DNA of 25,150 bases from a virus. A program made the translations under genes and the position numbers. The stretch lies in IMG/VR virus record IMGVR_UViG_3300023180_004611, positions 1-25,150 of that record; one strand, given 5' to 3'. Numbering within the stretch: position 1 is the first letter of the stretch; each line of letters begins with the position of its first letter. Positions 2-21,092 of this stretch are shown here, one piece after another. Below the pieces are notes generated by a model that saw only the letters and a program-made list of their open reading frames with translations, made no database searches and was not told the origin of the DNA.

Positions 2-559
2 AAGCCTGTAAGAGGTCGTGGATCAAAAAATCGTAATCCAAAAACTTATGACCCACGCAAAGCACTAGATAAAGAAGATGATCGTATTCAAGGTATGGTA
101 AAGAAAAAATTGAAAAAAGAAGAAGTAGAAATCGAAGAATCAACTTCTGTAGAACAAATTGATGAGAAGGCACCAAAAATTGGTGTTGATAGCGTAGCAC
201 AACAACGTAAGATGGATGCTGCCCATGCAAAAGCTATGGGACGCTCAGTAAGAACTGGACGTAAGCTTCCAAAGAAATCAATGACATCTACTCAAAAGTC
301 TTTAGCTTCAATGAGCGAAACTGTTTCTGAAGAAGAAACTCTAGCAACTAATGCTAATAAAGAATTGCAAGATCGTGAAAAGAAAGAAAAGATCGTAAAG
401 CGTTCTAAAAGAGAAATGAAAAAGAAAGACGATGCTGAGATTGAATCAAAGGCACGTCGTGATGGTGGTCCAGCTGATGTATCAGAAGAAGGTGGCGCAG
501 GCGACCAAGGTACTGATAAATTGGTGAACAAATATAAAAAGGATACACCAAATTGTTAA
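2..559 (+). CDS. C-terminal part of a charged phage internal/head-type protein (5' truncated)
   Basis: The reading frame is open from base 2 of the window, so the true start lies upstream; the first internal ATG is at 95. The product is very rich in Lys, Glu, Asp, Ser and Ala and has no recognisable enzyme motif. It contains IEE|S (in EVEIEESTSV), which fits the (I/L)xE|(A/G/S) rule for T4 prohead protease gp21. The tail has an Asp/Gly stretch and ends GTDKLVNKYKKDTPNC, a kind of ending I associate with head-packaged proteins of marine T4-like phages. It overlaps the next gene by 7 bases. A role as a capsid-internal or scaffold-associated protein is inferred from composition and from the following genes. 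The coding call is fairly sure; the function is not. Confidence 0.7.
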   Translation, partial: KPVRGRGSKNRNPKTYDPRKALDKEDDRIQGMVKKKLKKEEVEIEESTSVEQIDEKAPKIGVDSVAQQRKMDAAHAKAMGRSVRTGRKLPKKSMTSTQKSLASMSETVSEEETLATNANKELQDREKKEKIVKRSKREMKKKDDAEIESKARRDGGPADVSEEGGAGDQGTDKLVNKYKKDTPNC

Positions 560-846
560 GATTTACTCAGTATCTTGCTGAAGGTATCAAGCTTAAATTG
601 ATCCGAGGCAAAGATCAAGATGTACTTAAGATGTGGGATACGAAGGAAAAGAGTTGGGTCGAGCTGAGAGGTAAACCCGGTTTTGAAAGAAAATACGACG
701 CCAAAGATCCGTTACATAAAGCAATTGCTGCTTTGGGGAAGTCTGCTAATATATCTGACTTCGTAAATGGAGATGAGGTAAGTATTAATCCAAACCATCC
801 TGATGGTAAGAAGGCACTAAAAACAATAAAAGGTCTGATGAAATGA
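553..846 (+). CDS. Small protein with capsid-targeting-like N-terminus (97 aa)
   Basis: The start is a TTG at 553, overlapping the upstream stop; no ATG gives a sensible protein. The N-terminus MLRFTQYLAEGIK resembles the T4 internal-protein capsid-targeting sequence (MKTYQEFIAEA in IPIII, from memory): an aromatic residue at position 4, another at position 7, and LAE|G as a gp21-like cleavage site. The remaining residues form a compact basic domain ending in KKALKTIKGLMK, with no known catalytic motif. The gene is coupled to the next one by an ATGA overlap at 843-846. The likely role is a protein packaged in the prohead, trimmed by the prohead protease and possibly injected with the DNA. That role is inference. 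Confidence 0.65.
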   Translation: MLRFTQYLAEGIKLKLIRGKDQDVLKMWDTKEKSWVELRGKPGFERKYDAKDPLHKAIAALGKSANISDFVNGDEVSINPNHPDGKKALKTIKGLMK

Positions 847-1088
847 TTAGTTTTAAACAGTTTTTAGAAGAAGGCACACTAGATGAAGGCTCCGAATCAT
901 GGGAAGCCGGATATAAAAGACGTGTCGTAAAAACTACAAAACCTGAGCATAAAGCAAAAGGACACAATTGGCGTATCAAAGGTAAAGATCGTCCTGAGAT
1001 CTCAATTAAGCTTTATAAAGAAAAACCTTCACAGGCTGAGTTTAATAAACAGATGCGCAGAGTAGCGGGGCACGAGTTCGGTGGATAG
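843..1088 (+). CDS. Small protein with capsid-targeting-like N-terminus (81 aa)
   Basis: The start ATG at 843 overlaps the upstream TGA. The N-terminus MISFKQFLEEGTLDEG matches the T4 capsid-targeting pattern closely: aromatic at 4, aromatic at 7, then LEE|G as a prohead-protease-like site. After it comes a short basic domain (GHNWRIKGKDRPEISIKLYK, then QMRRVAGHEFGG) that I recall as a recurrent cassette in marine T4-like phage proteins. No catalytic residues are evident. It lies in a run of similar genes (553-2198), each with its own leader. The inferred role is a capsid-internal protein matured by the prohead protease; the function of the cassette itself is unknown. Confidence 0.68.
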   Translation: MISFKQFLEEGTLDEGSESWEAGYKRRVVKTTKPEHKAKGHNWRIKGKDRPEISIKLYKEKPSQAEFNKQMRRVAGHEFGG

Positions 1089-1437
1089 ATTTAGTAAATA
1101 TACAGAAGATCGTATCGATGCTATTTGCGAAGAGTGCGATCTATATGAAGATCTAGAGATTACAGAGTCAGAGTTTGAAGGAAAGAAAGTCAAACTCAAT
1201 GATCCTATTCGTACTTCTGAGAACCCTAATAAGAAATTTAAGGTTTACGTTAAGAACGACAAAGGTAACGTTGTGGTAGTTCGCTTCGGCGATCCAAACA
1301 TGGAGATCAAAAGAGATGATCCTGCTAGACGTAAAAGCTTTAGAGCTCGACACGGTTGTGACAATCCTGGCCCTAAGTGGAAAGCCAAGTATTGGTCATG
1401 TTACCAGTGGAGAGCCGGCGCAAGTGTCGATAACTAA
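1081..1437 (+). CDS. Small protein with conserved Cys/Trp-rich C-terminal cassette (118 aa)
   Basis: The start is GTG at 1081, overlapping the previous stop by 8 bases. The N-terminal part (MDRFSKYTEDRIDAI, then EITESEFEG) is acidic and contains ITE|S, a plausible prohead-protease site around residue 31. Residues from about 35 to the end form a conserved-looking cassette: VKLNDPIRTSENPNKKFKVY, GDPNMEIKRDDPARRKSFRA, then CDNPGP and YWSCYQW. Two cysteines near the end could pair or bind metal. I recall this cassette in head-associated proteins of marine T4-like phages, stand-alone or fused. It probably acts inside the capsid or after injection. A late box follows immediately at its stop codon. 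Confidence 0.68.
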   Translation: MDRFSKYTEDRIDAICEECDLYEDLEITESEFEGKKVKLNDPIRTSENPNKKFKVYVKNDKGNVVVVRFGDPNMEIKRDDPARRKSFRARHGCDNPGPKWKAKYWSCYQWRAGASVDN

Positions 1438-1443
1438 TAAATA
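1435..1443 (+). promoter_or_regulatory. T4-type late promoter box TAATAAATA
   Basis: TAATAAATA matches the T4 late consensus TATAAATA except for one base and overlaps the upstream stop codon. The same 9-mer recurs at 2196 and 8306. It lies 27 bases before the 1470 start. Confidence 0.6.
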
Positions 1444-1469
1444 TCAATAAAACTACAAAGGGTAAACCT

Positions 1470-2198
1470 ATGAGACGTTTCAAAAATCATATTGAGCTTG
1501 ACAAAGGTATGAAAGAAGAAGTTGAACTAAATGAAGCTTCTTTTTCTGCTGATGTTACTTCTGAACCAGGACCTTTAAAAAGATATGTTAACACTGCTTT
1601 GAAAAAAGGCTTAAAAACTAAAGTAGTTAGACACGGTGGTGCAACTGAAGTTATTTTAACTGGTGATAGAGATGTTATTACCAAGTTTTTGAAAAGTCAA
1701 AGATTTTCTGCTAAAGAAATCGAGCGCGGCTTTGCTAAAATGTCAGAAGCTTACAGACCTCCTACAGCAGCTGAAATCAAAAAAGATAAAGAGCGTGAAA
1801 ACGCTGGCAAAAAACGTCCAAGTATGGATCATAAATCTGTATCTAATAAGCTGTATGTAAACATGCGTCCAAAGCTTAAAGAAGAAGAAATTGCAGAAGC
1901 TATTAAGGCTTATTGCTTAGAAGAAAACATTTCTGCCGACGATTTGGCTGATATGAACGAAGAACAACTTGATGAAATCATCGGTAAAGTTGTAGGTGGC
2001 GCTGTTAAGATGGCAGCAAAAGGTGCTTATAGAGCAGCTGTGAATAAGCAAGGTAATTTTAGATTATCTAGTGCAGGCAGAGCAGATAGAGCTGAAAAAA
2101 GAGCTGCTGCTATGGAAAAGAAAAATAAAGATCGTGAACGCATTAGAGCAGCTCAAAAGAGATTACAAGCTGCTAAGCAAAAAGCACGACAAAAATAA
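1470..2198 (+). CDS. Basic internal-type head protein with protease-like sites (242 aa)
   Basis: The ATG at 1470 follows AAAGGG and a late box. The N-terminus MRRFKNHIELDKGMKEEVELN is leader-like, with LNE|A at about residues 21-24 as a candidate prohead-protease site; a second, IAE|A, lies near residue 138. Residues 28-91 form a small alpha/beta-looking domain. The middle is acidic and helical (ADMNEEQLDEIIGKVVGGAV), and the last 60 residues are a strongly basic helix (SSAGRADRAEKRAAAMEKKN and following) suited to DNA binding. This layout (leader, acidic helix, basic tail) recurs in capsid-internal proteins of marine T4-like phages as I recall them. The inferred role is a DNA-associated capsid protein or core component. 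Confidence 0.68.
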   Translation: MRRFKNHIELDKGMKEEVELNEASFSADVTSEPGPLKRYVNTALKKGLKTKVVRHGGATEVILTGDRDVITKFLKSQRFSAKEIERGFAKMSEAYRPPTAAEIKKDKERENAGKKRPSMDHKSVSNKLYVNMRPKLKEEEIAEAIKAYCLEENISADDLADMNEEQLDEIIGKVVGGAVKMAAKGAYRAAVNKQGNFRLSSAGRADRAEKRAAAMEKKNKDRERIRAAQKRLQAAKQKARQK

Positions 2199-2946: not shown

Positions 2947-4197
2947 ATGGTCGTTGACTTATTTTTAGTATACCAATTCATACGACGTCTCGCCACACCG
3001 TTTGATAAGTGGGATGCGTATAAGGAAGGTATCATTGACGATAAAGGTAAAGTCCTAATTAAAAAGAAAGACTTTACTAATAGCCGCCAGCGTAAAGCTT
3101 GGGGGATCTTTGATATTATGATTGCAAATCTTAAGAAGATTCTCGGTAAAGTTCCAGGCGGACAATCTCGTCTTGCCTCATACGCTGCAGCACTCTTTCT
3201 AATTAAAGAATACAAAGCATTTACTGATGAGTCTATGCTTACAGAAGATCTTACTGAAGAAGATCTAGAAGAATCATTACTATTATTTAATGACCGATAT
3301 GTCAATTATATCACAGAAGAAAGCGATGTCAAGGATTTATTGATAGAAAAGCTTAAAAAGTCTGATGATATGGGTACATGGATTAAAGATTTCTATGACT
3401 CAGATGCTCCTCAATTCAAAGGCAAATCAAAAGAAAAACGTCGTAAGATGGCGGTTGCTGCAAAGCTAGCTGCTATGGATGAAGAGATCCATCCAGATGT
3501 AGTAAAAGCTTATAAGAAAACTCGAGACGCTGAGCATAAGCACGGAGAGTATAGCACAACTGCTACTAAGAGAGCTGTTACAAGAACTGCAAATACTTTA
3601 TCTAAAAAGATTAAACAGCATCATCCAGGTCTTGATATGCAAGGTAATATTAAGCTTCGCACTCAATTGCAAAATATGAAAGAAGAAGCAGATTTAGATG
3701 AACTATCAATGTCACTTAAAGATATTCAAAAAACTGGCCTTAATAAAAAAGCATACGGCACTGATAAAGATAAGCTAAAGAAAGATCTTGAAAGACTTAG
3801 AAAAGGTTTGAAGAAAGAAAGTCTTGAAGAAGCTGCCGCACCTCGCTGGAAACGTGCAGGCCCTAACGGCGAGATTCAAGCTACCGTCAATGGTAAGAAA
3901 TATCAAATTGAAAAATCATTAGATCATAACGAGCGCCATAGAGGCGAGTGGAAAGTTATGGTGTGGGACAAGCGCAGAAGCAGCTGGGAATGGGAAACAA
4001 CTGAATACGGTAAAGCCAATGCTAAGGCATGGATTATGGATAGATTACAAGAAGAGCCTGCAAACAATGTAAGTTCTGGTAATATTGCAGGTATGGACGG
4101 ATCTGCATTTTCTAAGGAAGCGCAAAAGCGCTGGACATCACAAAATAAATCATCTAAAAAGAAAAGACTGAGAGATATAATGGGAGATCGTAAATGA
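2947..4197 (+). CDS. Multi-module head/structural protein (416 aa)
   Basis: The ATG at 2947 follows AAGGA (2932-2936). Residues 1-95 form a conserved N-terminal domain (MVVDLFLVYQFIRRLATPFD, WDAYKEGIIDDKGKVL, VPGGQSRLASYAAAL) that I recall from structural proteins of marine T4-like phages. After it come low-complexity acidic linkers with prohead-protease-like sites (LTE|D, LEE|S, LEE|A) joining recurrent cassettes: DFYDSDAPQFKGKSKEKRRK near residue 157, a basic helical stretch with TATKRAVTRTANTLSKKIKQ, a WKVMVWDKRRSSWEWE beta module near residue 338, and a tail with NNVSSGNIAG. The product therefore looks like a polyprotein-like head component that could be cut into pieces during maturation. 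It overlaps the endolysin gene by ATGA. The exact role is unknown. Confidence 0.7.
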   Translation: MVVDLFLVYQFIRRLATPFDKWDAYKEGIIDDKGKVLIKKKDFTNSRQRKAWGIFDIMIANLKKILGKVPGGQSRLASYAAALFLIKEYKAFTDESMLTEDLTEEDLEESLLLFNDRYVNYITEESDVKDLLIEKLKKSDDMGTWIKDFYDSDAPQFKGKSKEKRRKMAVAAKLAAMDEEIHPDVVKAYKKTRDAEHKHGEYSTTATKRAVTRTANTLSKKIKQHHPGLDMQGNIKLRTQLQNMKEEADLDELSMSLKDIQKTGLNKKAYGTDKDKLKKDLERLRKGLKKESLEEAAAPRWKRAGPNGEIQATVNGKKYQIEKSLDHNERHRGEWKVMVWDKRRSSWEWETTEYGKANAKAWIMDRLQEEPANNVSSGNIAGMDGSAFSKEAQKRWTSQNKSSKKKRLRDIMGDRK

Positions 4198-5089: not shown

Positions 5090-5293
5090 ATGGCTTTGGA
5101 AGATATTGTAAAAGCGGCTATGGAAAGAGAGCCACTTAAAATTAAAGAAGCGTTTGAGTCTGAAATGGAAACTCGCATCATGGCTGCTTTGGAAGAAAAG
5201 TACAAAACTGCTCTGAAAGAAGCAGATGAAGATGAGGATGAAGACGACGACGAAGATGATGAAGACGAAGATGAGGATGAGGACGACGACTAA
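5090..5293 (+). CDS. 67: gp67-like acidic prohead core protein (67 aa)
   Basis: The N-terminal half is a short amphipathic helix region (MALEDIVKAAMEREPLKIKE, then FESEMETRIMAALEEKYK), and the C-terminal 23 residues are almost only Asp and Glu. This matches T4 gp67 (PIP), an 80-residue prohead core protein with a helical head and a poly-acidic tail that gp21 cuts into internal peptides. LKE|A directly before the acidic run fits the gp21 cleavage rule and corresponds to LIE|G in T4 gp67 (from memory). An AAGGAG site at 5078-5083 and a late box precede it. In T4 the gene lies between 20 and 68/21; here it sits between lysis genes, so it is displaced or a paralogue. Assignment rests on layout rather than long identity. 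Confidence 0.6.
   Translation: MALEDIVKAAMEREPLKIKEAFESEMETRIMAALEEKYKTALKEADEDEDEDDDEDDEDEDEDEDDD
5224..5290 (+). repeat. GAT/GAA/GAC/GAG low-complexity tract encoding an Asp/Glu run
   Basis: The tract is a purine-rich imperfect trinucleotide repeat coding for the acidic tail of the gp67-like protein. Such tracts change length easily by slippage. Confidence 0.75.
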
Positions 5294-12088: not shown

Positions 12089-13291
12089 ATGGACCGCGAC
12101 CTACTACATTATTTTGAGCAGACTATTGGTGACTTCAAAGAAGATGGTCGCTATCGTGTATTTAACGATATTATAAGAGAAAGGGGGCAGTTTCCAAAAG
12201 CCATTTGGTATGGGAAATATGCCCCTAAAAACATTGTGAACTGGTGTTCTAATGACTATCTTGGCATGGGCCAAAATGAATACGTCATTAGTGCAATGCA
12301 TACAGCATTAGATCAAACCGGCGCTGGTTCTGGTGGCACTCGTAACATTGGTGGTACATCTCAGTATCATGTTACACTTGAAAGAGAGCTTGCAACATTA
12401 CATAATAAAGAAGCAGCTCTCTTGTTTTCTTCGGCATATGTAGCCAACGAATGGGCCCTTGTTGCTCTGAGTAGAATAATTCCAAACATTTGTTTTATCT
12501 CTGATAATAAAAATCATGCTTCTATTATTATGGGAGTGAAACACAGCAGAGCTGACAAGATTATCTTTCCACACAATGATATGGATGAACTTGAGTTAGC
12601 TTTGCAAACCGCAACAATGTCTAATCAGACACCTGTTATTGTTTTTGAATCAGTTTATAGTATGGATGGAGACGTAGCACCAATTGAAGATATTTGCGAC
12701 CTTGCAGACAAGTATGGCGCAATCACCTATATAGATGAGGTACACGCAGTAGGAATGTATGGCGATACGGGAGCAGGATACTGCGAATGGTTAGGCGTAC
12801 AACATAGGATTGATATAATCAATGGAACATTGGGAAAAGCCTTTGGGGTTCAAGGTGGTTATATTGCTGGCAATAGCGCTGTTATTGACGCTATTCGGTC
12901 CGTGGCTTCTGGGTTCATCTTTACAACAAGTATCTCGCCCGTCCTCTGCGCAGGAGCAATCGCCGCCATCAAATATCTCCGTGACGCTACCGGATTAAGA
13001 AAACAGCACCAGAAAAAGGCGGAACAATTAAAATATATGTTAGGAGCTGCTGAGATTCCAGTTCATCAAAATGCTTGCACCCATATTGTACCAGTGATGG
13101 TAAATGATGCATTTAGATGTAAAACTGCGAGTGACCGTCTATTGAATGAGTTTGGAATTTATATACAACCTATAAATAGTCCGACAGTTGAAGTTGGTAC
13201 AGAAAGATTGCGTATAGCTCCTACTCCATATCATACTGATGTTATGATGGTAGAACTAGTGACAGCTTTAAAAAAGGTATTACATAAATGA
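12089..13291 (+). CDS. hemA: 5-aminolevulinate synthase (Shemin pathway, first step of heme synthesis)
   Basis: The enzyme condenses glycine with succinyl-CoA to give 5-aminolevulinate. Family landmarks are [17 protein letters not shown] (22-38), [12 protein letters not shown] (51-62), [13 protein letters not shown] (78-90), [14 protein letters not shown] (186-199), [11 protein letters not shown] (215-225, with D216 and H219 for PLP) and [13 protein letters not shown] with PLP-lysine K250. The length of 400 matches alphaproteobacterial HemA (about 400). These match ALAS better than the related KBL, BioF and SPT enzymes. No Cys-Pro heme regulatory motif is present. A perfect late box lies upstream, and the ribosome site is weak (AAGAG). 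It is coupled by ATGA to a DUF454-like gene. A C-rich patch at about 12899-13000 differs from the rest of the gene. It is a probable auxiliary metabolic gene from an alphaproteobacterial host. Confidence 0.9.
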
Positions 13292-14366: not shown

Positions 14367-15392
14367 ATGGCAAAGCGCATTCTCATTACGGGTGGCGGTG
14401 GTTTCATTGCGCACCACCTAATTAACCAAGTACTTATCCGAACAGACTGGGATGTTGTTACACTAGATCGTCTAGATTATAGTGGCAATCTAAATCGTTT
14501 GCATGATCTTCTTCAAGATCGTACCCCAGCTGAACGCAAACGAGTTCGTACAATTTACCACGATTTGAAAGCAGAAATCAACCCAATGCTCGAAGCAGAC
14601 ATTGGCCCAGTTGATATTGTTGCACACCTTGCAGCAGGTTCTCATGTGGATCGTTCTATTGAACGTCCTATGGAATTTGTAATGGATAACGTCGTAGGTA
14701 CATGTAATATTCTAGACTATGCTCGCCGTCAGGATAACCTAGAAAGATTCTTGTATTTCTCAACAGACGAAGTATTCGGTCCTGCCCCTGAAGGTGTCAA
14801 GTATGATGAGTATGATCGTTATAACTCAACAAACCCATACTCAGCATCTAAAGCAGGTGGTGAGGAACTCGCCGTAGCATATCAGAACACTTATAATATG
14901 CCAATCTATATTACGCATACTATGAACGTGTTCGGTCAACGTCAACATCCAGAAAAGTTTATTCCTCTATGTATTCGTAGAGCTCGTGATGGTGACACAA
15001 TTACAATTCACTCTGATGCTACTAAAACAATTCCAGGCAGCCGTCACTATATCCATGCTGAAGATGTAGCTGATGCAACACTATTCCTACTTGAAAACGA
15101 CCGCACACTGGATATGACAAACAACTCTGGAATCAAATGTCCTAAGTTCAATATTTGTGGTGCAACTGAATTGAATAACCTTGAACTTGCTCAAATGATT
15201 GCAGATGCTCAAGGAAAGGAACTCAAGTATGAATTTATGGATTTCCATAGCAGCCGTCCTGGTCACGATCTCCGCTATGCTTTATCTGGAGAAAGAATGG
15301 CAAATATGGGATGGACTCCACAACCAGTTGCCGATCGCATTGCAGAAGTAGTACATTGGACTCTAGATAATACAAGGTGGTTAGACATATGA
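14367..15392 (+). CDS. Extended SDR nucleotide-sugar enzyme, dTDP-glucose 4,6-dehydratase (RmlB)-like
   Basis: The NAD-binding motif GGGGFIAHH (residues 8-16) is followed by DRLDYSGNLNRL, AAGSHVDRSIERPMEF and the catalytic STDEVFG and YSASKAGGE motifs (Thr, Asp-Glu, Tyr-x3-Lys). The DE pair after Thr is the mark of 4,6-dehydratases such as RmlB rather than simple epimerases. HVDRSIERP and the later RHYIHAEDVADATLFLL and SSRPGHDLRYALS also match RmlB. The reaction would convert an NDP-glucose to its 4-keto-6-deoxy form. Substrate assignment (dTDP- versus CDP- or UDP-glucose) is open. GFIAHH instead of the usual GFIGSH is a small oddity. A strong ribosome site and a perfect late box suggest good late expression. 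Confidence 0.85.
   Translation: MAKRILITGGGGFIAHHLINQVLIRTDWDVVTLDRLDYSGNLNRLHDLLQDRTPAERKRVRTIYHDLKAEINPMLEADIGPVDIVAHLAAGSHVDRSIERPMEFVMDNVVGTCNILDYARRQDNLERFLYFSTDEVFGPAPEGVKYDEYDRYNSTNPYSASKAGGEELAVAYQNTYNMPIYITHTMNVFGQRQHPEKFIPLCIRRARDGDTITIHSDATKTIPGSRHYIHAEDVADATLFLLENDRTLDMTNNSGIKCPKFNICGATELNNLELAQMIADAQGKELKYEFMDFHSSRPGHDLRYALSGERMANMGWTPQPVADRIAEVVHWTLDNTRWLDI
15354..15369 (+). repeat. 16-base direct repeat, copy 2
   Basis: This copy is identical to 13767-13782, near the 3' end of the epimerase gene (peptide HWTLD). Confidence 0.6.
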
Positions 15393-15970
15393 GCTTTTTA
15401 CAAATGATTGATAAGGAATACGAAGATGCATGCAATACGTTTTCCGATATTAATGAACACTTACCAGTTCTATATGAACTAGGTATGGAGTGCGACAGCA
15501 TTACAGAAATGGGTACTCGTCGTGGAGCGAGTACTCGTGCTTTCTTAAGAACAAATGCAAATAAGATTAGAGCATATGATGTACGTATGTTTGACCATGT
15601 AGAAAATCTATTTGTGCATGCAAGAGAAGCTGGTAAGGACGCACAGTATATTAAAGCTAATGTGCTTGATATTGAGATCGACGAATGCGATCTATTGTTT
15701 ATCGATACTTGGCATGCTAATCATCAGCTTACTCAAGAGCTTAAACTTCATGGAAACAAGGCTCGTAAGTATCTTGTATTTCATGATACTCATACGTACG
15801 CAGTACGAGACGAAAAAGAAGATTGGCAACATTACAGAGATAAGCACTCAATTCCAGGTGAAGGATTGCTTCCTGCCATCATTAACTTCCTGATTGCAAA
15901 TCGTCACTGGCGATATAAAGAAATCAGAACAAATAACAATGGACTAAGTATTTTAGAGAGAGTTGGATAA
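15389..15970 (+). CDS. CmcI/rhamnosyl-O-methyltransferase-like protein
   Basis: Residues from about 36 show a Rossmann methyltransferase start (SITEMGTRRGASTRAFL), a later acidic strand (CDLLFIDTWHANHQLTQEL) and YLVFHDTHTYA, which match the cephalosporin-hydroxylase/rhamnosyl O-methyltransferase (CmcI) group of SAM-dependent, metal-using methyltransferases. His and Asp in FHDTHT could bind metal. The ATG at 15389 overlaps the previous stop (ATGA); a GTG at 15377 is an alternative. Its place between a sugar dehydratase and a glycosyltransferase suggests O-methylation of a sugar. The family assignment is by motif only, and the substrate is unknown. Confidence 0.7.
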   Translation: MSFLQMIDKEYEDACNTFSDINEHLPVLYELGMECDSITEMGTRRGASTRAFLRTNANKIRAYDVRMFDHVENLFVHAREAGKDAQYIKANVLDIEIDECDLLFIDTWHANHQLTQELKLHGNKARKYLVFHDTHTYAVRDEKEDWQHYRDKHSIPGEGLLPAIINFLIANRHWRYKEIRTNNNGLSILERVG

Positions 15971-17520
15971 TGCCTCAGATTGTAGATTGTTTTCCATTTT
16001 TTGCACCTTATAACGAAGAAATGCTCTATCTTAGAGTGAATCTTCTTAAGGATGTTGTTGATAAGTTTATTATCGTAGAGTCTAATAAGACTCATAGTGG
16101 TCAGCCTGTTGAAAGGAAATTCATGGAGATTGCTCGTAAGCAAGGTCTACCAATGGAAAAGATTATCTATGTAGAACATGATATTCCAGAAACTGATGAT
16201 ATCGAAGTTCTTAAACTAGACAGAAGAAATGCTGGTGAGAACGCAAAGAATGACGATTCTGTATATGCTCGCGCAAGAGAACGCCTACAGAAAGATGCTG
16301 TTATGTCAGTAATGGATCAGTTTAATAACGACGACATTTTCATTTATGGCGACTGCGACGAGATCATTAAACCTGAGAATGTAAAGTGGGTTGCAAGAAT
16401 GGCTCGAGCAAATCCTCAGGTTGTAATTAAAATTCCTCTTGCTTATTTGCAAGGTCGTGCTGATCTACGCATACATTATAAGAAAGAAAAAGGTCCAGTT
16501 GTTTGGTGGAAAGCTATGTTCTTTGCGCGTAAAGATGTAATTATGAAGTGGACAGTTAATCGTCTGCGCTGTGGTGCAGTTGAACTTCCAACAAGATGGC
16601 CTACACATGCTAACGTTGTTATTCAAGACATGGGTTGGCACTTTGCTTGGATGGGAAATGACAAACAAAGAACAATTAAAGCGCACTCGTTTGCTCATGC
16701 ACATGATAAATTTGCATGGATGGAACAGCAGGGCTTCAGCGGATTTGAAACATATGAAGCTCAAAGAGTTGCTGAAGAAGAAACGGCTCCTGATGGTAAT
16801 GAGAATCATATTCTTAAAAGACACCCTGTTGCAGATCTTCCCAAACTTATCTTTCAGGAGCAGTGGCTAAAAGATTTCTTCTTACCAGAAGAAGATATTA
16901 ATGGTGAATATTCTTTTAATAAGTGTAGATGTTTTTGGTGTACAAAGCTAGATTTCCCGTTACTATATAATCTAGATGGAAAACAATACTGGTTTGAAGT
17001 ACCTCGTAGCTGCTCTGTAACTATTAAGGAAAGCTTCCCAGATCGTAAGCAAGTGTTTAGAGATGATGATGAGTACGATGAAGCAGGTGTGCCAATTATG
17101 ATATGGACAGATCCAGTAGATCGATTCATCTCGTGCATTAATGCTTATGTGACACCAAAACAACGTTATTATGCTTATGGTCAAGATGTATTCTCATCTC
17201 TAGGATATAAGCTAGAAGAACTGGAAATAGAAGAAAAGGTAGATCTATTCTTTAAGAATCTGAGTAAGATAACATCTCAGCATCAGGTTCACCACTTCCA
17301 TCCTCAGTGTCAATTTGTCGACACTAAACGTTTTAAGAAGATTGAAGTTGTTAAACGAGAAGAAGTAAATGATCGTTTTGGAATCAACGAAGTCATGAAC
17401 GAGACAGTGAAAGAAATCACTCGTGAAACCTTCTCAAAAGAACAAATCGAATTTATAAAACGCATATATAAATCTGATTACGAATTCTTTGAGAAGTACC
17501 GTGGCAAAAAGAAGAGTTGA
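15970..17520 (+). CDS. Fusion of a GT17-type glycosyltransferase and a sulfotransferase
   Basis: Residues 1 to about 310 resemble glycosyltransferase family 17: VDCFPFFAPYNEEMLYLRVN, DVVDKFIIVESNKTHSGQP, and the nucleotide-sugar metal site GDCDEII (127-133). Residues about 320-512 look like a Sulfotransfer_2-type domain: a 5'-phosphosulfate-loop-like EVPRSCSVTIK (343-353), a 3'-phosphate-binding-like DPVDRFISCINAYV (381-394), HHFHPQCQFVD (441-451) and the typical end IYKSDYEFF. One polypeptide could therefore add a sugar and sulfate it using PAPS. The gene overlaps the previous one as TAATG. No signal or membrane segment is visible, so it acts in the cytoplasm, on a lipid-linked or small acceptor or a protein. 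The GT17 call is firmer than the sulfotransferase call. Confidence 0.78.
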   Translation: MPQIVDCFPFFAPYNEEMLYLRVNLLKDVVDKFIIVESNKTHSGQPVERKFMEIARKQGLPMEKIIYVEHDIPETDDIEVLKLDRRNAGENAKNDDSVYARARERLQKDAVMSVMDQFNNDDIFIYGDCDEIIKPENVKWVARMARANPQVVIKIPLAYLQGRADLRIHYKKEKGPVVWWKAMFFARKDVIMKWTVNRLRCGAVELPTRWPTHANVVIQDMGWHFAWMGNDKQRTIKAHSFAHAHDKFAWMEQQGFSGFETYEAQRVAEEETAPDGNENHILKRHPVADLPKLIFQEQWLKDFFLPEEDINGEYSFNKCRCFWCTKLDFPLLYNLDGKQYWFEVPRSCSVTIKESFPDRKQVFRDDDEYDEAGVPIMIWTDPVDRFISCINAYVTPKQRYYAYGQDVFSSLGYKLEELEIEEKVDLFFKNLSKITSQHQVHHFHPQCQFVDTKRFKKIEVVKREEVNDRFGINEVMNETVKEITRETFSKEQIEFIKRIYKSDYEFFEKYRGKKKS

Positions 17521-17734
17521 ACAAGGACTGCTTTATCTTAAAGCAGATGTAGAAAAACTAAGAAGGGAGAAGGCCGAACTCTATGAAGAGAACAACGGCC
17601 TTCGCCAAGAAAATATGATGCTAAAGGATGCGTTAAGCGCAATCGTAGAAGATGAAACTTTATGGTCTCAAGAAGCAATTCAAGGAGGATTGGTTTGGAG
17701 ATTGAAAAATGTTTTGCAACAAATTGCAAATTAA
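17501..17734 (+). CDS. Small coiled-coil protein (77 aa)
   Basis: Starting at the GTG at 17501 (overlapping the upstream gene by 20 bases), the product MAKRRVEQGLLYLKADVEKL is followed by a leucine-zipper-like helix (EKAELYEENNGLRQENMMLK) and a short C-terminal helix. A TTG at 17489 is an in-frame alternative. There is no DNA-binding signature beyond the basic N-terminus, which with a zipper recalls bZIP-like layouts, but that is weak. It is the last gene before the 17748 promoter. The function is unknown. Confidence 0.6.
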   Translation: MAKRRVEQGLLYLKADVEKLRREKAELYEENNGLRQENMMLKDALSAIVEDETLWSQEAIQGGLVWRLKNVLQQIAN

Positions 17735-17747
17735 TTGAAAAAAAGGG

Positions 17748-17776
17748 TTGACATTCACTGGTAAAAGTACTATATT
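17748..17776 (+). promoter_or_regulatory. Sigma70-like promoter upstream of the SleB-like gene
   Basis: TTGACA (17748-17753), a spacer of 17 and TATATT (17771-17776) lie in the 67-base gap before the ATG at 17802. The context GGGTTGACATT is nearly the same as at 21758 and 6527. An inverted repeat, TACTAT-ATTA-ATAGTA (17768-17783), covers the -10. Confidence 0.82.
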
Positions 17777-17801
17777 AATAGTATAACAATGAGGCAGTAC
17801 A

Positions 17802-18320
17802 ATGAAAAACCTAATCTCCGCAATCCTAACAGGATCTCTAATCCTAGGTAGTATCACAGTAGCATTCGCTGAAGTAGAAAAAAGAGCATCAGCAGAAGAG
17901 TTACGTTGTTTAGCACTTAATATCTATTATGAAGCACGTGGTAGTAACCTTGCAGATAAAGCAGGCGTTGCCGATGTAGTTTTGAACCGCGTGAATGACA
18001 CTCGTTACCCTAACACAATTTGCGAAGTAGTACATCAAGGAAAGCAAAAACCTTCTTGGAAAGATCCAAATGTAATGGTAATGGTCCGTAATGCGTGCCA
18101 GTTCTCTTGGTACTGTGACGGAAAAGCCGACAATCCTCAAGACGAAGATCGTTGGCAAGAAGCTCAACTTATTGCTTTCAATATGCTTGAGTATAACAAG
18201 TTTCGTGGTATTACCGAAGGTGCAACACACTACCACGCTACTTATGTTAAACCAAACTGGGCCAAAGATCTACAGCAAGTGGGTCGTCTTGGCGCTCACA
18301 TTTTCTATCGCTGGGAGTAA
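17802..18320 (+). CDS. Secreted SleB/CwlJ-type cell-wall hydrolase
   Basis: An N-terminal Sec signal peptide (MKNLISAILTGSLILGSITV then AFA|E, cut near residue 23) precedes a Hydrolase_2 (SleB-like) domain: EELRCLALNIYYEARGSN with the likely catalytic Glu, AGVADVVLNRVN, CEVVHQG, QFSWYCDGKAD and ATHYHATYVKPNWA. Such enzymes cut peptidoglycan (lytic transglycosylase or amidase type). It would act in the periplasm without a holin. GAGG (17790-17793) supports the ATG at 17802. It stands behind a strong host-like promoter, so it is made early, unlike the late endolysin at 4194. Early roles such as wall remodelling or altered superinfection are conceivable but unproven. The length of 172 is close to that of stand-alone domains of this family. 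Confidence 0.88.
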   Translation: MKNLISAILTGSLILGSITVAFAEVEKRASAEELRCLALNIYYEARGSNLADKAGVADVVLNRVNDTRYPNTICEVVHQGKQKPSWKDPNVMVMVRNACQFSWYCDGKADNPQDEDRWQEAQLIAFNMLEYNKFRGITEGATHYHATYVKPNWAKDLQQVGRLGAHIFYRWE

Positions 18321-18321
18321 T

Positions 18322-18465
18322 ATGTACCTCGTAAAAGCTTGGAATAAAGATAACAATCTTGTAGCAGAATATTATTTCGATAAACAAAAGGAGGCTCTTC
18401 TCTTTCATGATGGCTTGATAGAAGAAGGGTACTCCGTAGCATTGGAGACTCGTAATGTCAAATGA
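18322..18465 (+). CDS. Small hypothetical protein (47 aa)
   Basis: The ATG at 18322 follows GGGAG at 18313-18317, which lies within the end of the hydrolase gene. The product, MYLVKAWNKDNNLVAEYYFD and a further 27 residues, looks like a small alpha/beta domain and has no known motif. It overlaps the next gene by 11 bases, which supports it being translated. The same reading frame is open further upstream, but that part overlaps the hydrolase and has no ribosome site. The function is unknown. Confidence 0.6.
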   Translation: MYLVKAWNKDNNLVAEYYFDKQKEALLFHDGLIEEGYSVALETRNVK

Positions 18466-18820
18466 AAGATACGTAGTTGTAACCGCAGTAAGTCAATTCA
18501 GGCAGAGATATGCAATTCCTGTAAGCGCTTTGCAAGGCATGTCTCCCGATGTAAAGCTTGATGATAAAACATTGATTGAATACGCAAATGACTCCGTAAC
18601 TTGCGAAGAAGTAAATGAATTTTCTCAGAGTTGGATGGGTGAGCAAATTGTTGATACTTTTATCTTAGATGAGCCTCGTGTTCTTCAGTTGTTTGATCGT
18701 GATAATGACTATCTCAAAGACTGGACGAAAGAAAAGAAACTCGAACATATCCACGATTGGGAAGAAAAAAAAGATTCTGCTGGTATCTCTTCTCCGTTCC
18801 CTATTGAGTTTGATAAATGA
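18455..18820 (+). CDS. Hypothetical phage protein (121 aa)
   Basis: The ATG at 18455 follows GGAG at 18443-18446. The protein MSNERYVVVTAVSQFRQRYA begins with a likely beta strand pair and ends in an acidic and lysine-rich helix (DWTKEKKLEHIHDWEEKKDS). It has no membrane segment, signal or catalytic motif. It is coupled by ATGA to the dehydrogenase gene that follows. Proteins with this start (a short sensory or binding-like fold) occur in marine T4-like phages as I recall, without known function. Confidence 0.65.
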   Translation: MSNERYVVVTAVSQFRQRYAIPVSALQGMSPDVKLDDKTLIEYANDSVTCEEVNEFSQSWMGEQIVDTFILDEPRVLQLFDRDNDYLKDWTKEKKLEHIHDWEEKKDSAGISSPFPIEFDK

Positions 18821-19569
18821 AATTACAAATAGCGGGATACGGCTTTGTAGGTATGGCGCATGCTCTTGCTCTTGAAGGCGGAGATGTAAAAACTTATATC
18901 TACGATCCTGATAAAGGATATGGAAATTGGCGTAAAGACATGGATGCCATCATCGTATGCGTTAGTACACCAATGGATACAGATGGATCTTGTGGCATGT
19001 CGAATGTGTATTCCATCATAGAAGATGTACCTCCTGATGTGCCTATTCTAATTAAGTCCACGATCTCTCTAGAAGGCTGGAGATTAATGAAAAGGGCTTA
19101 TCCTAAGGCAAAGCTTACCTTTTCACCAGAGTTTCTTAGAGCCGAGCATGCAATGGAAGATTTTAAGAAACAAGAGTTTACCTATATTGGCGGTGGCGAC
19201 ACTGCATTCTGGGCTGGTATTCTCAGTATGAGACTTGGTACAACTGTAGTTACTCATGATCCCGAAGTTTTAATTTTGACTAAATACTTTAGGAATAGCT
19301 TCCTTGCGGCGAAGGTTGCTTTCTTTAATCAAATGTATGACGTGTGCGAAGCTACTGGTGTTGACGCAAATGAAGTGTTGACATATACGGCTTTAGATGA
19401 TAGAATAGGTACAAGTCATACAAAAGTGACAAAAGAAAGAGGATATGGAGGTCATTGCTTTCCAAAAGATGTATCTGCAATACTAAAAACTGTAGAACAA
19501 CTTGGTGGTGATCTATCTATTCTCGGAGAAGTTCAAAACTATAATAAAGATGTGAGAGGAAGAAAATGA
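18817..19569 (+). CDS. Short UDP-glucose/GDP-mannose 6-dehydrogenase family protein
   Basis: The enzyme family oxidises UDP-glucose (or a related NDP-sugar) to the uronic acid using NAD. Visible are GYGFVG (7-12, NAD loop), VCVSTPMDTDG (47-57), SPEFLRAEHAMEDF (103-116), K156 in TKYFRNSFLAAK, and the catalytic cysteine C214 in GYGGHCFPKD. The length is 250, against 390-450 for the usual enzymes: the C-terminal NDP-sugar-binding domain is absent and the middle is compact. The stop is followed directly by the next gene (ATGA), so this looks like a natural short form and not a frameshift. Activity and substrate are uncertain because part of the sugar-nucleotide site is normally supplied by the missing domain. 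Confidence 0.85.
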   Translation: MKLQIAGYGFVGMAHALALEGGDVKTYIYDPDKGYGNWRKDMDAIIVCVSTPMDTDGSCGMSNVYSIIEDVPPDVPILIKSTISLEGWRLMKRAYPKAKLTFSPEFLRAEHAMEDFKKQEFTYIGGGDTAFWAGILSMRLGTTVVTHDPEVLILTKYFRNSFLAAKVAFFNQMYDVCEATGVDANEVLTYTALDDRIGTSHTKVTKERGYGGHCFPKDVSAILKTVEQLGGDLSILGEVQNYNKDVRGRK

Positions 19570-19982
19570 AAGTCGGATTTACATGCAGTGCATTCGACCT
19601 TTTGCATGCTGGGCATATTCAAATGTTGCGTGAAGCAAAAGAACAATGTGACTATTTGATTTGTGGTTTACAAATTAACCCAGCCTTAGATCGCAAAGAA
19701 AAGAATGCACCTATTCAAACAGTGGTTGAACGCTATACTCAACTTAAAGCAGTATCTTACGTTGATGAGATCATTCCTTATTTGACAGAAGATGATTTAT
19801 GTGATATATTAGCTATGTATCATATTGATGTAAGGATACTTGGAGATGAGTATAAAGAAAAGGATTTCACGGGCAAGGATATTTGCAAGAAGCGGGGTAT
19901 CCAGCTATATTTCAACAAACGCGACCACCGCTTCTCGTCTAGCGATTTACGTAAACGGGTTGCAGAAAGGGAAATTAAATGA
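19566..19982 (+). CDS. Cytidylyltransferase, glycerol-3-phosphate cytidylyltransferase (TagD)-like
   Basis: The nucleotidyltransferase signature is clear: GFTCSAFDLLHAGHIQML, with HxGH at residues 14-17, the central ERYTQLKAVSYVDEIIPY, and the ending RFSSSDLRKRV, equivalent to the ISTS/xxSSS motif. The length of 138 matches TagD (about 130). The reaction would be CTP plus a phospho-alcohol or phospho-sugar giving a CDP-linked product; glycerol-3-phosphate, phosphoethanolamine and phosphocholine are all possible. It is coupled to the dehydrogenase upstream and the hypothetical gene downstream by ATGA overlaps. With its neighbours it suggests remodelling of envelope or capsid glycans or lipids. 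Confidence 0.85.
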   Translation: MKVGFTCSAFDLLHAGHIQMLREAKEQCDYLICGLQINPALDRKEKNAPIQTVVERYTQLKAVSYVDEIIPYLTEDDLCDILAMYHIDVRILGDEYKEKDFTGKDICKKRGIQLYFNKRDHRFSSSDLRKRVAEREIK

Positions 19983-20215
19983 GAGAACCGGTATTTGAAA
20001 AAGGCTATCCTTCCTACGAAGCTGTAAACGATATTTACGATACAACTGAAATCCGTTTACAAGATCAAGACATGCTTGTTACTTTGCATAACGTTGCTCG
20101 TATTATGGAAGAAGCAGACAACACTCTAGGTTCTGAGCTTAGAAAAATTGCTGATCGCTTTTCTGATCTTACTAACAAAGCACATAATCGTAAACATTGG
20201 ACAGGACGGGAATAA
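19979..20215 (+). CDS. Small hypothetical protein (78 aa)
   Basis: The ATG at 19979 overlaps the previous stop and the stop at 20215 overlaps the next start (TAATG). The protein is acidic and helical (MREPVFEKGYPSYEAVNDIY, then ARIMEEADNTLGSELRKIAD) with no membrane segment and no known motif. Tight coupling on both sides supports expression. The function is unknown. Confidence 0.62.
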   Translation: MREPVFEKGYPSYEAVNDIYDTTEIRLQDQDMLVTLHNVARIMEEADNTLGSELRKIADRFSDLTNKAHNRKHWTGRE

Positions 20216-20400
20216 TGGAATATCTTTGGGCTTTATACGTTGTAACTGCATTAGCTAGTGGCGATACTAAATATACTCGTGTATCTGATGTTCTATATGA
20301 ATCTCGAATGAAATGTGAAATCGAGGCAACAGTTTATGCCGCGGTTCATGAGCCTTGGGCAGACAACGAAACAGTTTGGTGTATAAAGGTAGATGAATGA
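20215..20400 (+). CDS. Small protein with signal-like N-terminus and two cysteines (61 aa)
   Basis: The product begins MEYLWALYVVTALASGDTKY, a hydrophobic stretch that could be a weak signal peptide or anchor, and then has two cysteines (Cys38 and Cys57) in an otherwise polar domain, which could pair in the periplasm. I chose the ATG at 20215, with GGGA just upstream and a TAATG overlap, over the in-frame ATG at 20197. It overlaps the phosphomannomutase-like gene by ATGA. The function is unknown. Confidence 0.58.
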   Translation: MEYLWALYVVTALASGDTKYTRVSDVLYESRMKCEIEATVYAAVHEPWADNETVWCIKVDE

Positions 20401-21092
20401 GAAAATTTGTGTTTGATGTGGATGGTACTTTGACACCAAGCCGTGGTAAAATTGATTCACAGTTTGAAGCTTGGTTTTCAAATTTTATTGAAAAAGAAAA
20501 AGTGTATCTTGTAACCGGATCTGATTATCCAAAAACCGCTGAGCAGCTTGGTAATGAGATTTGTGAAAGTGTTGTTACTGTTTACAACTGTCAAGGCAAT
20601 GATGTATGGTTTAAAGGTAAGCGTGTTAACTCAAAAGAGTTCACACCTCCAAAAGAATTGTATGATCTAATGAATGGCTGGTTACAGGCAAGCGGTTTCC
20701 CTCTTCGTACAGGTACTCATATCGAAGAACGCCGTGGTATGATTAACTTTAGTATCTTAGGTCGAGGTGCAACTAAGGAGCAAAGAGCTGAATATGTTGT
20801 TTGGGACAAAGAGCATCGAGAAAGAGAAAGTATTGCTTATCAAATTAATTCTGATTTTGATGGAATTACTGCAACTATCGGCGGTGAAACTGGTATAGAT
20901 ATACATAGGACTGGTGGAAACAAAGCTCAGATCCTAGAAGACTTTAACGAGGATGATCATGTGATTTTCTTTGGGGATGCAATGTATAAAGGTGGAAATG
21001 ATTATCCTTTAGCCAATGCAAACAAAAAAGGAACTAACCATCAAGTAAGTGGATGGGAAGAAACTTGGGAAATACTGAAAGGTTACACATGA
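20397..21092 (+). CDS. HAD-family phosphomannomutase of the eukaryotic (PMM1/PMM2) type
   Basis: The enzyme would interconvert mannose-6-phosphate and mannose-1-phosphate. The HAD nucleophile motif is FDVDGTLTPSR (D7 and D9), followed by YLVTGSDYPKTAEQLGNE (37-54), RTGTHIEERRGMINFSILGR (104-123), K176 in GGNKAQIL and FFGDAMYKGGNDYPLA (191-206). The order and wording match human-type PMM (VTGSDxxKxxEQLG; GTFIExRxGMLNxSPIGR; FFGDxxxxGGNDxE). This differs from the bacterial ManB/AlgC fold. The length of 231 is close to the family's about 245. The product could feed GDP-mannose synthesis for a glycan, fitting the GT17 and dehydrogenase genes nearby. An alternative is a related HAD sugar phosphatase. 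Confidence 0.8.
   Translation: MRKFVFDVDGTLTPSRGKIDSQFEAWFSNFIEKEKVYLVTGSDYPKTAEQLGNEICESVVTVYNCQGNDVWFKGKRVNSKEFTPPKELYDLMNGWLQASGFPLRTGTHIEERRGMINFSILGRGATKEQRAEYVVWDKEHRERESIAYQINSDFDGITATIGGETGIDIHRTGGNKAQILEDFNEDDHVIFFGDAMYKGGNDYPLANANKKGTNHQVSGWEETWEILKGYT

Follow-up and report, generated by a model that had tools for sequence, protein, structure and literature searches.

Probable modular head cargo behind T4-type capsid-targeting leaders in an uncultured marine T4-like virus

The locus and its surroundings

The window, that is, the whole stretch of DNA analysed here, comprises 25,150 bases and makes up a complete IMG/VR record (IMGVR_UViG_3300023180_004611). It comes from an uncultured marine T4-like virus. 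Among its genes are thyX, nrdA, one matching phage nrdB, and those for a GH19-type endolysin and a primase-like protein, a content shared with marine T4-like viruses. Near its start lie four consecutive genes, named here by their first nucleotide (553, 843, 1081 and 1470; Table 1), the first three of which overlap end to start by a few bases. The first-pass annotation had described them as open reading frames with leader-like N-termini followed by (I/L)xE sites, and both coordinates and motifs proved correct. The pattern extends past positions 553-2198, to the giant protein upstream (2-559) and to the product of 2947-4197. A counterpart of the locus is found 3' of the primase-helicase in HTVC008M, C48C1 and P-TIM68, where it is followed, as far as these are annotated, by primase or nrdAB; HTVC008M and C48C1 have relatives of gene 1081 and of the module proteins.

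Table 1. Features of the locus in window coordinates; a slash marks a predicted cut
Feature	Position	Strand	Remarks
Giant modular protein, C-terminal end	2..559	+	N-terminus outside the window; internal sites VEIEE/S, EQIDE/K
Gene 553, leader MLRFTQYLAE	553..582	+	ORF 553-846, TTG start; predicted cut after nt 582 (E10/G11)
Gene 553, predicted mature cargo	583..846	+	87 aa, pI 9.7; no database family
Gene 843, leader MISFKQFLEE/GTLDE/G	843..887	+	ORF 843-1088, ATG start; two successive predicted cuts, after nt 872 and 887
Gene 843, predicted mature cargo	888..1088	+	SWEAGYKRRVV module, 66 aa, pI 10.2
Gene 1081, leader	1081..1167	+	ORF 1081-1437, GTG start; F4 and Y7 kept; conserved site ITE29/S30
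Gene 1081, predicted mature cargo	1168..1437	+	89 aa, pI 9.9; phrog_7595 / weak DUF5754 module
Late-promoter-like box AATAAATA	1436..1443	+	26 nt before gene 1470
Gene 1470, leader MRRFKNHIELDKGMKEEVELNE/A	1470..1535	+	ORF 1470-2198, ATG start
Gene 1470, basic modules	1536..2198	+	Residues 23-93, 94-138, 139-242; sites MSE/AYRPP, LKE/EEIAE; predicted mature pI 9.9
Multi-module protein	2947..4197	+	N-terminal phrog_18642 domain, then SDAPQFKGKS and WKRAGPNG modules; sites LLIE/KLKK before the former, SLEE/AAAPRWKRAG before the latter
Start-proximal WATAAATA boxes	1436, 2197, 5051, 6013, 8307, 12055, 14326, 22633, 24755	coding strand	

The coding strand of the window has 11 WATAAATA boxes, nine of which stand no more than 45 nt upstream of a start codon, where 0.8 would be expected, and such boxes are also enriched upstream of starts in three related contigs. 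Their placement makes the box a putative late-promoter-like signal. The number of exact boxes in the window is mildly above chance, and that of TATAAATA with one mismatch is not. We do not take the box as proof of late expression, because nrdA and the aminolevulinate synthase gene carry it as well. The latter gene (12089-13291) encodes a full-length 5-aminolevulinate synthase (TIGR01821, 565 bits against a cut-off of 339). Such a metabolic gene is unusual in a phage and suggests a host, perhaps an alphaproteobacterium, that uses the glycine route of haem synthesis. Elsewhere in the window, sugar-nucleotide genes stand in a row downstream of nrdAB at 14367-21092 (products resembling dTDP-glucose 4,6-dehydratase and nucleotide-sugar dehydrogenase, a HAD-IIB hydrolase and others), and 5090-5293 encodes a small protein whose long tail is acidic (Asp/Glu), similar proteins occupying the same place in relatives (G001:166561, G002:32943 and G003:43965).

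The leader and its register

The N-termini of the four products were aligned with the T4 IPIII sequence, which served as the register reference. Genetic mapping has placed the capsid-targeting sequence of IPIII in its first ten residues, with positions 4 and 7 serving targeting and positions 8 and 10 processing, while the T4 prohead protease gp21 cuts after L/I-x-E and known T4 propeptides comprise 10-19 residues (PMC9026906). The products of genes 553 and 843 fit IPIII at all four mapped positions (F4, Y/F7, L8 and E10). That of 1081 fits with F4 and Y7 but not with T8 and D10, and that of 1470 with F4 and I8, its H7 replacing F/Y and its L10 not fitting; here an L/I-x-E site comes later, in LEITE/SEF after residue 29 of 1081 and in EEVELNE/ASF after residue 22 of 1470, so that the targeting half of the leader is kept and the cleavable site lies further on, close to or beyond the T4 propeptide range. 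The earlier view that 553 and 843 resemble the T4 leader best and that 1081 and 1470 are looser fits is thus borne out in this register. The predicted mature products have pI values from 9.7 to 10.2, the median in the related contigs being 5.4.

F or Y at position 4 together with F, Y or H at position 7 is found in exactly these four genes among the 43 of the window, against a baseline of 2.8% of the 822 proteins of three related contigs of 195-221 kb, which formed the comparison set. Within this set a strict leader pattern stands at the N-terminus of 13 proteins, where 0.17 would be expected from internal positions, and the exact register F/Y4-F/Y7-I/L8-E10 occurs in 10 proteins at shift 0 and in 0-2 at each of 33 other shifts; these statistics, like those on the motif below, rest on kindred sequences, a purpose-made gene caller and a short motif. 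The shortness of the motif and the partial fit of 1081 and 1470 are what could be said for the view that unrelated small genes with similar N-termini stand side by side by chance. We regard this as having next to no probability, as exactly four adjacent genes out of 43 carry the pattern, the register test speaks against it and there is conservation in about 100 related loci; for 553 and 843 it is refuted by the persistence of the pattern across relatives.

Scans of viral contigs returned 126 relatives of gene 553 and 531 of gene 843. Alignment of 32 sequences from the 553 family shows M1, E10 and G11 to be invariant, with residues 2-9 varying within the pattern. Relatives of 843 come in two forms, one in which a leader M-x-x-F-K-x-F-x-E/G is followed directly by SETWEAGY, the other in which the module is the C-terminal part of a longer protein, with xxE/G at the junction in most cases; the window's own 843 product has a second site, LDE/G, five residues past the first. 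Structure models give low confidence to the leaders (residues 1-9 of 553, with an AF2 mean pLDDT of 41 over residues 1-10, and most of residues 2-17 of 843) and a fold directly after them, which for the mature part of 553 is a mixed alpha/beta model of moderate confidence. Neither 553 nor 843 has a match in annotated phages or a relative among solved structures by sequence and fold searches, and 553, 843 and 1470 match no significant Pfam or PHROG family. TAL-effector matches obtained with one profile (A1) were rejected as the summed match of a 21-residue repeat in which no stretch passed.

It had further been suggested that the bodies behind the leaders are all different, and a comparison of homologues had been proposed to see whether leaders are conserved and bodies vary. 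This holds between gene families, but within a family the situation is reversed: with identities of 70-97% between relatives and the window protein, the body shows strong conservation, and it is the leader that varies more, its pattern residues excepted.

Modules in series and varied cargo

The proteins of the locus are mosaics of short modules. Gene 1081 carries a single one, whose family match, phrog_7595, has no annotated function; its relatives mostly keep E/A or E/S before the module (EITE/A, VVEE/A, LTE/A; MKKFKQYIDE/G in the C48C1 version), and the residues between leader and site vary. The product of 1470 is a chain of three modules, each of which recurs in other protein contexts. The giant protein that ends at position 559 closes with KKDTPNC, its relative G001:158485-161748 with KKDTPNA; members of this family combine a nucleotidyltransferase or 'cytidyltransferase' with many modules, and one of them (L179:14146-17307) matches the phrog_3041 cytidyltransferase and DUF5824.

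The motif [IL]xE[AGS] is present at 6.4% of 1,728 non-redundant module boundaries and at 1.3% of other places in the same proteins, whereas the D and K controls are flat and the reversed motif gives 2.2% versus 1.4%. Furthermore, 52 leader-borne mature N-termini recur inside other proteins in 278 contexts, and in 111 of these [ILVMF]xE stands at the aligned P1 offset of 0 or +1, each other offset having 5-25. The SDAPQFKGKS module illustrates this: it is found behind a leader (MQGFKKHLEE/KLKASDD), internally behind LSE/, LDE/, MNE/ and LGE/KLK, and with a bare start (M-PLKVSDG). A second leader-borne module that recurs internally is AEKSGM. When proteins are grouped, [IL]xE[AGS] counts are 35 against 10.5 expected for the locus, 28 against 10.9 for the head genes and 355 against 306 for the other 783 proteins; the reversed motif is at 13 against 11.6 in the locus, and it too is raised in the head genes (19 against 10.4). 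Only the grouped test was used, because counts in single proteins scatter too much for a gene to be classified by its own count. An unbiased ranking by motif excess places the known prohead proteins gp22 and gp21, together with proteins of the locus, near the top of the 822 proteins, mixed with others.

The recurrence of modules in long proteins behind [ILVMF]xE makes some of these genes look like polyproteins cut by the prohead protease, and since a site precedes each module in series, one gene may yield several head-borne products. The first-pass annotation had missed these sites between shuffled modules, which make such genes look like more than one tag plus one cargo. Two observations count against a cargo role, namely that in 1081 and 1470 only the targeting half of the leader stands next to the initiator methionine, and that P1' at internal sites is often K, D or E and not A, G or S.

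The variety behind the leader goes beyond the window. Among 159 sequences it is found on 19 body clusters, some of which are probably spurious frames, and family searches identify DUF6267, an HD_4 hydrolase, an NT5C nucleotidase and a zeta-toxin-like AAA kinase among the bodies; a further leader-bearing protein, L069:1069-1965, has a borderline ADP-ribosyltransferase match (E 9e-5, just below the Pfam cut-off), and others contain the GRMNPPTIGH motif of nucleotidyltransferases. When the HD enzyme is compared by tblastn with BcepSauron, Vibrio phage pv27 and others, the alignments start at query residue 18-19, behind the leader, as expected for an added tag. The HD protein L098:694-1251 and those of five similar loci are RelA/SpoT-like (HD_4) and have a second site after the leader (FIAE/ETLNE/SALK); from its family match, this protein is a possible head-delivered (p)ppGpp hydrolase. 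The first-pass proposal is thus partly borne out: a T4-type leader and prohead-protease site on modular, unrelated cargos are supported by the pattern, its register and the body clusters, while cleavage, delivery and an anti-defence role would be predictions.

Head genes, virion proteins and related systems

The window ends short of the head-gene region, and all five related contigs encode a prohead protease of the gp21 type (PF03420) together with gp23, which in the three fully read contigs has SLL[SQM]E/[AT] at the place matching the T4 cut. In these three, between gp20 and gp21 and thus in the place of T4 gp67/68, lies a gene with similar leaders (MKSFKQKLAE/, MKTFKTLVSE/, MKTFSKLLSE/) that shares a module with the cargo locus.

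Virion data from cultured relatives allow the leader to be compared with packaging. In the cyanophage S-SCSM1, whose virions were analysed by mass spectrometry (PMC9602691), the record gives seven ORFs of the syntenic locus as virion proteins, namely 89, 90, 91 (NMNAT), 92, 93, 95 and 97, and the NMNAT starts with MKSFLQFLKE/A. Virions of S-SM1 contain a cytidylyltransferase (PMC3037559). For S-CREM2, 52 virion proteins were identified by mass spectrometry (Table 3 of PMC10665884). There the leader pattern matches five of 219 proteins, gp6 (SAM hydrolase), gp13, gp14 (APH-like kinase), gp154 (cytidylyltransferase) and gp175 (55 residues), and all but gp175 are in the virion list (4/5; Fisher p = 0.012); the pattern was fixed before the count, and as some of the N-termini had been seen by then, this is a fixed-pattern test and not a blind one. 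The neighbouring gp8 and gp11, which are not virion proteins, are without the pattern. Leader-like starts also occur on two proteins absent from the virion lists, S-SCSM1 ORF30 (MKTFKQFMSE) and S-CREM2 gp175, and the S-CREM2 authors consider carry-over through CsCl possible and do not exclude contamination (PMC10665884).

Further virion proteins drew our attention for other reasons. S-CREM2 gp12 (L209:7704-10313), annotated as a Cas9-like nuclease, has a long low-complexity start and near its N-terminus a displaced leader-like LRFASFMAE/AA; the annotation deserves a check. S-SCSM1 ORF97 (L205:43121-43306) and S-CREM2 gp160 (L202:10343-11236) contain a stretch resembling the N-arm of their own gp23, located just past the predicted cut (GGFTGSSAAEGPTAGYDPLMK versus DGFQGGSADAGPTAGFDPVLI), as if mimicking gp23.

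The main rival to a cargo role is that the proteins are solely parts of the prohead core or scaffold like T4 gp22, gp67 and gp68, in which case the leader would join them to the core, where they would be cut up and for the most part lost from the head, without a function in the host. The several sites per protein recall gp22, the head-operon protein in the gp67/68 place has a similar leader and shared modules, and T4 core proteins are indeed cut into multiple fragments that are mostly removed (PMC9026906). Nevertheless, the bodies at the locus show good conservation and appear folded, enzymes are found as other leader-bearing bodies, and relatives are present in mature virions, and we therefore judge a scaffold-only role to be unlikely. 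Less likely still is that the leader is a short amphipathic helix with another use, such as docking to a host protein or a membrane, on proteins that act in the infected cell and are never packaged, [IL]xE being no more than a common feature of acidic linkers. The leader is predicted as a short helix, and the linkers between modules are acidic and rich in E; however, the D and K controls are flat at module boundaries, the reversed motif is flat in the locus, a similar leader is found on the core gene beside gp21, and the S-CREM2 virion data point to packaging.

We consider it likely that genes 553, 843, 1081 and 1470 encode T4-type modular head cargo that is targeted to the prohead, trimmed by a gp21 homologue and probably delivered to the host. 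The leader pattern, its register, the shuffling of modules, the site enrichment and the presence of gp21 in relatives come from the present analysis; the occurrence of homologous or leader-bearing proteins in virions of relatives comes from the data of others. As we envisage it, the N-terminal capsid-targeting sequence would carry the four products into the prohead core, where a gp21 homologue would trim the leader after L/I-x-E and the mature cargo would stay packed with the DNA. Behind the leader there may be one folded module directly, or several in a row with a protease site before each. By analogy with T4, the products would probably reach the host together with the DNA and work at an early stage, in DNA binding, host take-over or perhaps anti-defence. 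For marine T4-like viruses more widely, we give about even odds to a view in which shuffled modules and whole enzymes, among them a (p)ppGpp-hydrolase-type HD hydrolase, a nucleotidase, a zeta-like kinase, a SAM hydrolase and an ADP-ribosyltransferase, travel behind one tag or as polyproteins that are cut in the head into effectors released into the host as infection begins. With a readable address tag, head cargo would become predictable from sequence alone, also in uncultured marine viruses, and the module junctions provide exact and testable predicted cleavage sites.

T-even heads are known to carry varied proteins behind a conserved targeting sequence (PMC3012670), the T4 internal proteins are basic, and use of the targeting sequence by other T4-like phages has been suggested (PMC9026906). 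With T4 IPI, IPII and IPIII the window genes share the ten-residue leader with aromatics at 4 and 7, I/L8 and E10 (in full in 553 and 843), basic mature products with varied bodies behind one tag, and a gp21 homologue, here in relatives. They differ in that their bodies fall into no database family of T4 internal proteins, that the kinds of cargo are many more and that modules stand in series with a site before each. The T4 Alt ADP-ribosyltransferase is a packaged enzyme with a short N-terminal propeptide (PMC9026906), to which the borderline ADP-ribosyltransferase match behind a leader may be compared, although Alt is no homologue of the window genes. In the giant phages phiKZ and SPN3US, many head proteins are cut by gp21-like proteases after a short Glu-ending motif, and their propeptides have several sites, as here, in a head system that differs (PMC9026906).

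A parallel in position is the NMNAT/cytidylyltransferase that mass spectrometry detected in virions of S-SM1, S-SCSM1 and S-CREM2, phages of cyanobacteria. In the latter two its gene precedes primase and nrdAB, which matches the order in the window's locus, and its leader is MKSFLQFLKE/ or MKNFSSFLTE/; the accessible parts of the three papers give no loading mechanism. As NMNAT, kinases and hypothetical proteins are repeatedly found in cyanophage particles by mass spectrometry, a readable tag would explain how they enter. In the literature searched, mostly outside subscription journals, we found no description of multi-module internal proteins cut by the prohead protease in marine T4-like viruses. 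While the principle of tag plus cargo is established for T-even phages, its extent in marine T4-like viruses, the way it accords with virion proteomics, and the shuffled modules in series, each behind a site, thus appear to be new.
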